Made by a program: the position numbers and the translations under genes. Below are positions 41,035-44,212 of a DNA stretch of 64,000 bases, piece by piece. A model generated the notes under the pieces. It was not told the DNA's origin. It worked only from the letters and a program-made list of their open reading frames with translations, and made no database searches. The DNA comes from Alphaproteobacteria bacterium. GTDB taxonomy: Bacteria; Pseudomonadota; Alphaproteobacteria; JAJTHO01; CANGXP01. Where the stretch lies: contig CANGXP010000004.1 of the NCBI GenBank assembly GCA_947457935.1, forward strand, positions 1 through 64,000. Direction: 5' to 3'. The first letter of the stretch is position 1; each line of letters starts with the position of its first letter.

Positions 41035-41637
41035 ATGACTAGCTCCCTCATCCTCGCCACCCACAATCAAGGCAAAGTGCGTGAATTGGGCGCACTGTTG
41101 CAACCGCTGGGCTTTAGCGTCACGGCCGCTGGCAATCTCGGTGTCACAGAACCCGAAGAAACAGAAAATACCTTTGCAGGCAATGCGCTTTTAAAAGCAA
41201 AACATACCTGTAACGCAACAAATCTGCCGTCTTTAGCCGATGACTCAGGACTGTGCGTTCCTGCCCTTAACAACGCCCCTGGTATTTATTCCGCCCGTTG
41301 GGCAGGCGAACACAAGGACTTTACGCTTGCGATGCAGCGTGTAGAAAACGAGCTGAAAGCCTTGCAAAATAACGATTACAGCGCATATTTTGTTTGCGCT
41401 TTGGCATTATGCTTACCAAATGGTGAGCAGCACGTTTTTGAGGGCAGAATTGACGGGACACTTACCTTCCCACCCCGCGGCGATAAAGGCTTTGGCTATG
41501 ACCCGATTTTTATTCCAACGGGATATACGCAAACATTCGCGGAAATGAATCCTGCGGAAAAACATGCTCTAAGCCACAGAGCGCGGGCGTTTGAGAAGTT
41601 TGTGGCGTTTATTGCTGCAAATAAAACAGTCGTTTGA
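41035..41637 (+). CDS. rdgB: XTP/dITP pyrophosphatase (RdgB/HAM1)
   Basis: Removes noncanonical purine triphosphates from the pool. The 200-residue protein has LILATHNQGKVRELGALL, GNALLKAKH, SLADDSGLCVPALNNAPGIYSARWAG, the loop FPPRGDKGFGYDPIFIP and the terminal LSHRARAFEKF. All family signatures are present. In alphaproteobacteria it often adjoins rph or hemW, which are absent here. Its 3' end overlaps the convergent GT2 gene by 29 bases. Confidence 0.95.
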   Translation: MTSSLILATHNQGKVRELGALLQPLGFSVTAAGNLGVTEPEETENTFAGNALLKAKHTCNATNLPSLADDSGLCVPALNNAPGIYSARWAGEHKDFTLAMQRVENELKALQNNDYSAYFVCALALCLPNGEQHVFEGRIDGTLTFPPRGDKGFGYDPIFIPTGYTQTFAEMNPAEKHALSHRARAFEKFVAFIAANKTVV

Positions 41638-42526
41638 TTTCCTTGCGCGACCGCGCCAAGCTATCTAGAATCATCCCGCAAAAAAAACTTAAAAACGCCA
41701 GAATCATAATTCCTGTTGCAAGAATAGCTGTCGGAAAACGCGGAACCAGACCCGTTGCAAGATACTCGCTAATGACGGGAATGCTCAATAGAATAGATAT
41801 ACTCGCAAGGCATATAGCCCCCAAACTAAAAAATAAGAACGGGCGTACTTCTTTAAACAACACCATAATACGTAAGAGGATCCTAAAACCATCTCGAAAG
41901 GTGCGGAGTTTACTGGTTGATCCTTCAGGACGCGCTGCATACTCCAGCGGCACTTCCATGATAGGGAGCTTTAGCTCAAGGGCATGAATACTCAAATCTG
42001 TTTCCACCTCAAAGCCCACGCTAGACTTAGGAAATGTTTTGACAAACCTACGGGAAAACACCCGATACCCTGAAAAAATGTCTTTCAAATTACTCTGGAA
42101 CAAATGACGAAACAGGCGGTTAAACACGCGATTACCAAACTGGTGATAATGCCGAAACGCGGCATCTGCCAGTGGCTTTCGTGCGCCAATAACCATGTCA
42201 AGCTGGTTATCAATCAACAGCTTAATGAGCATGGAAGCCTTGCTGGCATCGTAGGTTAAATCCCCATCCGCCATGACGTAAATATCGGCCTCAATATCCG
42301 CAAACATACGGCGCACCACACTGCCCTTGCCTTGCCGCAATTCTTTGCGCACAATCGCCCCTGCTTTGGTTGCCTCAGCAATGGTGTTATCTGTTGAATT
42401 GTTATCGTACACATACACCAACGCGCCCGCCAAGTGCTGCTGAAAACTTTTTACAACGGCGGCAATCGTCTTTTCCTCGTTATAACAAGGCAATAAGACG
42501 GCAATTTTTTGTTCTGTTAAAATCAT
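41609..42526 (-). CDS. Glycosyltransferase family 2 with C-terminal membrane helices
   Basis: A 305-residue protein. The GT-A domain has AVLLPCYNEEKTIAAVVKSF, the DxD-like MADGDLTYDAS and the region FSGYRVFSRRFVKTFPKSSVGFEVETDLSIHAL. Two C-terminal membrane helices follow (about residues 225-250 and 262-290). This matches DPMS/ArnC-like transferases acting on polyprenyl phosphate. The donor and product are unknown; it could serve LPS or the polysaccharide made from the 16-25 kb locus. It runs away from the parS site and glmU. Confidence 0.87.
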   Translation of the reverse strand: MILTEQKIAVLLPCYNEEKTIAAVVKSFQQHLAGALVYVYDNNSTDNTIAEATKAGAIVRKELRQGKGSVVRRMFADIEADIYVMADGDLTYDASKASMLIKLLIDNQLDMVIGARKPLADAAFRHYHQFGNRVFNRLFRHLFQSNLKDIFSGYRVFSRRFVKTFPKSSVGFEVETDLSIHALELKLPIMEVPLEYAARPEGSTSKLRTFRDGFRILLRIMVLFKEVRPFLFFSLGAICLASISILLSIPVISEYLATGLVPRFPTAILATGIMILAFLSFFCGMILDSLARSRKEIKRLFYLQQ

Positions 42527-42584
42527 AGCTAATCGTTAATTTTACCCTGCGCGAACCCATTATATTTATCCAGCATTGAAAATA

Positions 42585-42600
42585 TGTTTCACGTGAAACA
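42585..42600. promoter_or_regulatory. parS centromere-like site (ParB binding)
   Basis: The 16-base perfect palindrome TGTTTCACGTGAAACA is identical to the bacterial parS consensus bound by ParB (Spo0J) with CTP. A chance occurrence in 64 kb is very unlikely. parS sites usually lie near the replication origin, so this region is probably origin-proximal although parAB is not in the window. Confidence 0.9.
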
Positions 42601-42673
42601 TTGTTTTCACGGCAGAATAGAGCCAAATTTTTGGAAATTCATGCTTTTTTAACAAACACGATTTTCCCGTATC

Positions 42674-42702
42674 TTGACATAAAAAGGTTAATCTAACGTA
42701 AT
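42674..42702 (+). promoter_or_regulatory. Candidate promoter of glmU-glmS
   Basis: A perfect TTGACA (42674-42679), a 17-base spacer and CGTAAT (42697-42702). Transcription would begin about seven bases inside the palindromic element that starts at 42703, making that element the 5' untranslated leader of glmU. Confidence 0.6.
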
Positions 42703-42825
42703 GCAGGTGAAGTATTTTTGAGGAATTTTTAGGCAGACAAACACGAAAAAGCGGAGTGTATTAAATATACATGAGCATTTTGAGTGGTTGTCTAACAACA
42801 AAATTACCAAAAAGACGAGCACTGC
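42703..42825. repeat. Palindromic element (GCAGGTGAAG family) in the glmU leader
   Basis: A 123-bp sequence beginning GCAGGTGAAGTATTTTTGAGG and ending AAAAAGACGAGCACTGC. Its halves are imperfect inverted copies. A sister with the same ends and about the same length lies at 49324-49463 between the two secretion genes. It follows the promoter and ends 46 bases before the glmU ATG. Confidence 0.82.
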
Positions 42826-42871
42826 CAAGGAGAGCTTGCACAATTTGCGTAAATCCGTCAAATATTCTACC

Positions 42872-44212
42872 ATGGAATCACTCAACTTTTCTGTTCTTGT
42901 GCTGGCGGCGGGCAAGGGGACGCGGATGCGCTCAACGCTGCCAAAAGTGATGCACCCGTTAGCGGGCTTGCCGCTTATTCGCCATGTTCTGAACGCCGCA
43001 GAAACGCTTACTCCCAAGCAAATTTCTGTGTTGATTGGTGAAGAAATGGCGGATGTTGCCGCAGTGTCAAAACCGCATAAAACACTTCTACAAAAAGATC
43101 GCCTCGGCACAGGGCACGCGGTGCAGCAAGGCGTTGCAGGCGGCGCATTGGCGGAGGCAGAGGCGTTGGTGGTGCTCTATGGCGATACGCCGCTCATCAC
43201 GCCCGATACCATTCAAGCAATGCTTGCAAAATTATCACAAAATCCTGAAGCAGCGCTTGTTGTATTGGGATTTCACACGGCAACACCAACGGGCTATGGG
43301 CGATTAGTGGTGGAGCATGGCGCATTACAACGGATTGTTGAAGAAAAAGAAGCCTCTGAAGTTGAGAAAAAAATCACCTTCTGCAACGCAGGGATTATGC
43401 TGTTTAGAAGCAACGTGTTGCCCGAACTCCTCGCAAAACTAGATAATAATAACCAGAAACAAGAATATTACCTTACCGATACTATCCACCATGCGCGCAA
43501 CGCGGGGTATACCTGCCTCACGGTAGAGGCAACAGCAGAAGAAGTGTTGGGCATTAATTCCAAGGCGGAATTGGCGCAAGCAGAAAACATTCTGCAGCAA
43601 CAGCTTCGCGCACAAGCCCTTGAACAGGGCGTTACATTGATTGTCCCTGAAACGGTGTTCCTCTCAAAAGACACCACCTTTGGGGGTGACGTGGTAATTG
43701 AACCGAATGTGTTTATTGGCGCAAACGTGCATTTAGCAGATGGCGTGCATATCAAGGCATTTTCCCACCTTGAGGGGGCAACTATCGGTGCACATTCAAC
43801 AGTAGGGCCTTTTGCGAGACTCCGTGCAGGGACTGTATTAGGCAAAAACGTCAAAATCGGTAATTTTGTTGAAACCAAAAAAGCCACTTTTGGCGATGAA
43901 GCGAAAGCCAGCCATTTAAGCTACATTGGCGATGCAACGGTAGGTAACCATGCCAACATTGGTGCGGGCACGATAACCTGTAATTACAATGGCTTTACCA
44001 AGGCGGAAACGGTGATTGGGGAGGGCGTTTTTGTGGGGTCAAACACCGCGCTTGTTGCGCCCATCACCCTTGAAAAAGGAGCGATTATTGGCGCAGGCAG
44101 CACCATTACCCAAAATGTACCAGCGGATAGTCTGAGCCTTACCCGCCCCCCGCAAACAATCATAACAGGCTGGGCAACAGCATTTCGAGCACGATTTAAA
44201 AAAGAGATATAA
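42872..44212 (+). CDS. glmU: Bifunctional UDP-N-acetylglucosamine pyrophosphorylase / glucosamine-1-phosphate acetyltransferase
   Basis: Makes UDP-GlcNAc for peptidoglycan and lipid A. The 446-residue protein has the N-terminal uridylyltransferase domain (VLAAGKGTRMRSTLPKVMHP, VVLYGDTPLI, GYGRLVVE) and a C-terminal left-handed beta-helix with hexapeptide repeats and the active-site GNFVETKKATFGDEAKASHLSYIGDA. The ATG at 42872 fits the family start; a start 84 bases upstream would add 28 residues translated partly from the repeat. It is followed four bases later by glmS. Confidence 0.97.
   Translation: MESLNFSVLVLAAGKGTRMRSTLPKVMHPLAGLPLIRHVLNAAETLTPKQISVLIGEEMADVAAVSKPHKTLLQKDRLGTGHAVQQGVAGGALAEAEALVVLYGDTPLITPDTIQAMLAKLSQNPEAALVVLGFHTATPTGYGRLVVEHGALQRIVEEKEASEVEKKITFCNAGIMLFRSNVLPELLAKLDNNNQKQEYYLTDTIHHARNAGYTCLTVEATAEEVLGINSKAELAQAENILQQQLRAQALEQGVTLIVPETVFLSKDTTFGGDVVIEPNVFIGANVHLADGVHIKAFSHLEGATIGAHSTVGPFARLRAGTVLGKNVKIGNFVETKKATFGDEAKASHLSYIGDATVGNHANIGAGTITCNYNGFTKAETVIGEGVFVGSNTALVAPITLEKGAIIGAGSTITQNVPADSLSLTRPPQTIITGWATAFRARFKKEI

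Follow-up and report, generated by a model that had tools for sequence, protein, structure and literature searches.

Known ParB-Binding Sites and the Locus under Study

Chromosomal ParABS systems, such as those of Caulobacter and B. subtilis, are built around parS (consensus TGTTNCACGTGAAACA), which is normally regarded as sufficient in itself, a 16-bp site for which the flanking DNA is irrelevant, and which most bacteria confine to the origin domain. Alphaproteobacteria typically carry about two bare parS sites near gidA/parAB. Here we describe a parS site in a stretch of 64,000 nucleotides (the window, on contig C4) from an alphaproteobacterial draft genome of 1.83 Mb (72 contigs, 99.58% complete). 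As a ParB-binding motif it is ordinary; its setting is unusual, a composite cassette that is private to this lineage and present in seven copies. The genome shares with the known systems the exact 16-bp palindrome, its occurrence in several copies, a parAB-rsmG locus and the specificity residues of ParB. Unlike in those systems, each copy is accompanied by the same conserved, asymmetric arm, none lies on the contig that holds parAB, and the copies are dispersed beside varied genes, the origin proximity of the window copy being unsupported.

Two other kinds of dispersed sequence can be compared with the cassette. The Noc-binding sites of Firmicutes are also widely dispersed sites for a ParB-family protein (PMC7383237), although motif and protein are different, since the single ParB of this genome has R173 and G201 instead of the Noc residues. 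Repeats of the miniature inverted-repeat transposable element (MITE) or repetitive extragenic palindromic (REP) type are likewise short, dispersed and intergenic; in contrast to them, the cassette has neither terminal inverted repeats nor a conserved hairpin, is always linked to a functional-looking parS and occurs only seven times.

The parS Site and Its Cognate ParAB System

The window site reads TGTTTCACGTGAAACA (42585-42600), a perfect palindrome that is the same on both strands, matches the chromosomal consensus with 0 mismatches and is centred in an 18-bp dyad, ATGTTTCACGTGAAACAT (42584-42601). It is the sole parS match in the window, even when up to three mismatches are allowed, and the chance expectation for an exact site, calculated from local base frequencies, is 1.8e-5 per 64 kb and 5e-4 per 1.83 Mb. 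A scan of the whole draft for other copies, as proposed in an earlier note on this DNA, returned seven exact sites including that of the window (C2:93010, C2:110058, C4:42585, C9:14582, C16:23620, C36:13717 and C52:8705), none with one mismatch and two with two mismatches, while a reversed-pattern control gave 0 matches across the genome.

The cognate ParA and ParB are encoded in the same genome: its only ParB-family gene, on contig C55, adjoins parA and rsmG (gidB), with coaE, aroE, maf and ppsR near the locus. This ParB matches the ParB_N and HTH_ParB domains and aligns to Caulobacter ParB (6t1f) with an E value of 7.6e-57. Counted by hand off that alignment, in Caulobacter numbering, it keeps R173, T179 and G201, with Q replacing A184, and the parS-specificity residues R173 and G201 lie in its helix-turn-helix (GKSRSH and SAGH, compared with 6t1f). 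Among ParB orthologs, positions 173 and 201 are reported to be absolutely conserved (R173, G201), and 179 and 184 to be variable (PMC7383237). As R173 and G201 are kept, the protein should read canonical parS, and it presumably binds all seven sites. With high confidence, as judged from the sequence, the window site can be considered a genuine parS that works in this genome, in agreement with the earlier note, which had called it an exact ParB-binding consensus. The same note was right to place parA, parB and gidB outside the window (all are on C55; gidA, or mnmG, was not searched for). Its description of a satellite site holds in that the site is not at the parAB locus, but not in the sense of a satellite of a main cluster, since C55 (9.2 kb) carries no parS at up to three mismatches.

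A Composite Cassette in Seven Copies

All seven parS sites sit in copies of one asymmetric cassette of approximately 125 bases, their flanks being alike once set in one orientation; the site is thus not a bare parS, a point that the earlier note had missed. The cassette consists of a weak left arm of around 25 bp, the invariant 18-bp parS and a right arm that is conserved for around 45 bp and fades by about 90. In the window, it occupies the intergenic space between a glycosyltransferase gene and glmU, the two neighbours that had been named before:

41609-42526, minus strand: family 2 glycosyltransferase (GT2) gene (Pfam PF00535, E 6.9e-15), start codon 58 bp from parS
42560-42583, plus strand: left arm, weakly conserved (mean pairwise identity 0.53, seven copies)
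42585-42600, no strand: parS, 16-bp exact palindrome, unchanged in 7/7 genomic copies
42602-42644, plus strand: conserved core of the right arm, T.TTT...CGGCAGA.....GCCA..TTTT..AAAT (identity 0.77; 22/43 columns invariant, seven copies)
42645-42697, plus strand: distal right arm, which falls into two subtypes in this genome; the window copy has diverged furthest and is nearest to the C9 and C2:110058 copies
42871-44212, plus strand: glmU (NCBIfam NF010933, 599 bits)

The longest open reading frame of glmU begins at a TTG at 42788, but translation probably starts at the ATG at 42871, since homology does not set in before residue 33.

Identity along the cassette is at background beyond -25 and reaches 1.0 in the 18-bp core; on the right it is 0.77 from +18 to +60 (0.26 in shuffles), drops to 0.49 between +60 and +84, and has almost returned to background by +110. 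The left arm (24 bp) shows a mean pairwise identity of 0.53 against 0.32 when shuffled, with 0/2000 shuffles as high. Behind the motif CGGCAGA, the right arm forms an AT-rich imperfect dyad (GCC-ATTTTTnnAAAAT-CGGC), and its distal part divides the copies into subtype A (C4, C9 and C2:110058) and subtype B (C2:93010, C16, C36 and C52). Searched against the genome, a parS-free sequence model of the right arm recovers exactly seven strong matches (E <= 4.7e-15), all directly adjoining a parS, and the next match, at E 0.007, has no parS. The linkage between arm and parS is thus 7/7 in both directions.

The different parts of the cassette are unequally constrained. Variable columns amount to 0/18 in the parS core and 21/42 in the right arm (Fisher p 8e-5), and this invariance of the core while the arm varies indicates that parS was held by selection as the copies diverged. 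The two arms also differ from each other, both in invariant columns (4/24 on the left, 22/43 on the right; p 0.008) and in the identities given above (0.53 against 0.77; Mann-Whitney p 8e-4). As decay of the flanks would affect both sides alike, this inequality, measured over seven copies, makes it probable that the right arm is functional.

Distribution in Other Genomes

A composite pattern, made of the parS half and the arm motif with up to three mismatches allowed, occurs at seven places in this genome and at none in 384 other alphaproteobacterial genomes, apart from a single three-mismatch hit in genome G339 whose agreement with the pattern is mainly in the parS half. The cassette is therefore lineage-private with respect to this comparison set, which includes no second member of the genome's family and three other genomes of its order. 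The closest relative of glmU among those searched is 51% identical, and there is no syntenic GT2-glmU spacer for comparison. The same-order relative G003 has the same 16-bp motif and the same ParABS family, but its three parS sites, within 21.5 kb, are armless and clustered at parAB, and at least two of them read inside coding sequence (rsmG and lnt). In the stretches of G003 that were read, the in-gene parS translates as VSRET in both rsmG (522-1142) and lnt (1358-2971). Genome G008 has nine parS sites, none with the arm. Viral contigs contain no exact composite match, plasmid and phage records gave short weak matches only, none of them convincing, and no described equivalent of the cassette was found in the literature searched, which largely left out subscription papers.

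Genomic Context of the Cassettes

The cassettes are intergenic in 7/7 cases, with the following neighbours:

C4:42585 (window): GT2 gene and glmU
C2:93010: prpE-like acyl-CoA synthetase gene and phoH, with miaB also adjoining
One further cassette: mlaF-like ABC gene and flippase-like gene
C9:14582: phoU and mtaB
C16:23620: accA and a small gene pair followed by pstB
C36:13717: glnE and Phd/YefM-PIN genes
C52:8705: unnamed gene and parDE-like pair

The names glmU, phoH, miaB, phoU, pstB, mtaB and ybeY were assigned by NCBIfam and the Phd, PIN and ParE families by Pfam; the remaining neighbours are what we take them to be from reading their sequences (e.g., prpE-like, mlaF-like, flippase-like, accA and glnE). 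In four copies, the end of the right arm falls within some 15 bp of a neighbouring gene's 3' end; in the C4 and C9 copies, the arm lies upstream of a gene. A common role as promoter or as terminator does not suit all the copies.

Type II toxin-antitoxin genes stand beside two cassettes (Phd/YefM-PIN at C36:13796-14436 and ParE at C52:8005-8304), and an unassigned small gene pair adjoins a third (C16:23677-24280). The genes pstB and phoU, which usually stand side by side in one operon, are here on separate contigs, each next to a parS cassette (C16:23620 and C9:14582, respectively), a separation that may reflect rearrangement between cassettes. The miaB-phoH genes on C2 end at a parS cassette, and ybeY-corC are on C55 near parAB, whereas on contig C19 of G003 ybeY, corC and lnt follow miaB within approximately 1 kb; gene order thus appears to be broken exactly at the cassette. 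Regarding the assembly itself, N makes up much of C3 (positions 20001-90000), amounting to 73% across 90 kb of this contig, and comparison of contig ends for overlaps revealed one common end sequence only, which C16 and C52 share in the orientation of a repeat.

Chromosomal Position and SMC

The earlier note had assigned the window to the origin domain and regarded its site as a likely SMC loading point. Neither assignment found support. When GC skew at four-fold sites is worked out for the genes of each strand in turn and then averaged, it is +0.19 over the first 15 kb of C4 and -0.02 to -0.16 beyond it. The polarity thus switches from plus to minus near 15 kb of the window, and not from minus to plus. 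On C1, the cluster of rpoBC and ribosomal protein genes sits on the strand richer in G, where it would be expected if G enrichment marks the leading strand, which makes the plus-to-minus switch terminus-like; its polarity is that of a terminus or of an inversion or rearrangement, not of an origin. The skew test is weak, given that C9 has a switch of the same kind and at most one of the two contigs can hold the terminus. In five relatives assembled in one contig, glmU lies at 48, 65, 67, 91 and 93% of the half-chromosome from parB (with genome sizes rounded). A scan of 0.67 Mb for a dif site to locate the terminus gave a best match with 7/28 mismatches, too poor to be informative. Skew and glmU distance both point away from the origin, and the balance leans against an origin location for the window copy, neither being decisive on a draft of 72 contigs. 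The one cassette that synteny probably ties to the origin region is that at C2:93010, because it adjoins phoH and miaB, which in G003, together with ybeY-corC-lnt, lie approximately 15-20 kb from parAB.

As for SMC, a search with TIGR02168 (SMC_prok_B) of the partly masked sequence yielded three weak hits, the best with E 9.4e-7 and 25.6 bits, none over the family cut-off, which was exceeded in 10/14 genomes of a control search. In a genome called 99.6% complete, this shortfall may be a real absence, or the gene may be hidden by masked or missing sequence.

Proposed Origin of the Cassette and Possible Role of Its Arms

We consider it fairly likely that the window contains a genuine parS for ParB nucleation within a duplicated, lineage-private composite cassette, in whose seven copies parS has been kept by selection. 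According to this explanation, the cassette would have been copied to intergenic positions within this lineage, and selection would have kept parS letter-perfect as the arms diverged. ParB-CTP would load at parS and then slide outward, and the right arm, in our best guess, would either be bound by another DNA-binding protein or act as a roadblock to sliding ParB, and in this way shape loading or spreading. Other functions of the arm were considered and rejected. A structured or cis-regulatory RNA or hairpin finds no conserved fold (z-scores from -1.0 to +0.3; three alifold pairs with no compensatory change) and no match of the arm in Rfam. For a promoter there is no sigma-70-type match near glmU, and an intrinsic terminator as the common role disagrees with the position of the arm upstream of divergent genes (C4 and C9) and with the window arm, which has no terminator pattern.

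Several observations weigh against the duplicated-cassette explanation or soften it. The columns of the alignment are not independent and gene conversion is possible among copies, so the p-values are rough, and the left arm is perhaps not homologous in every copy, which weakens the argument from unequal constraint. With RNA-fold, Rfam and promoter searches all negative, the right arm lacks independent functional support, and without terminal inverted repeats the route by which the cassette was copied is not indicated. Moreover, more copies may exist, as the draft is in 72 contigs and includes at least one long masked stretch.

A lesser but real possibility is that the arms are relics, that is, that a parS locus was duplicated together with its flanks, parS was selected and the arms are decaying, functionless passengers. 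This would agree with arms that differ between copies at up to 17/42 positions, with subtypes that resemble two copying lineages and with conservation that fades distally; in addition, the mean identity predicts, as a rough estimate on a star tree, around 16/42 invariant columns, not far below the 21 observed. The better conservation of the right arm over an equally close left arm is at odds with simple decay, as is the fact that 0 arms have lost parS and 0 parS sites lack an arm. The original proposal of a bare origin-domain parS, a satellite of the origin cluster and loading point for SMC, now seems unlikely: although the C2:93010 copy adjoins phoH-miaB, which are about 15-18 kb from parAB in G003, the window parS is flanked by cassette arms, the skew of C4 is terminus-like, the glmU distances are large and no SMC exceeds the cut-off. 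Least probable of all is a mobile element, either MITE-like or integrative, that exploits parS or ParB in order to spread. Dispersal, intergenic location, the seven copies, restriction to this lineage and the toxin-antitoxin genes next to the C36 and C52 copies would all be in line with it, but a comparison of left and right ends is no better than shuffles in any of the seven copies, and remnants without parS are not found. A MITE was rejected for want of terminal inverted repeats, and a phage or plasmid origin in view of the database results above.

A further, rather doubtful proposal takes the duplicated cassette as a composite centromere, in which ParB loading would need both parS and a second protein bound to the arm. 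Such sites would then be found well outside the origin domain, even toward the terminus, and ParABS would organise the chromosome as a whole, perhaps with no canonical SMC involved.

As each parS here has the same constrained sequence next to it, and as parS seems to have been multiplied as a cassette, this genome offers a natural case for studying how chromosomes gain parS sites, and equally for asking whether flanking DNA modulates the loading or sliding of ParB. If copies do lie far from the origin, the cassette would also bear on why parS is mostly confined to the origin in bacteria.
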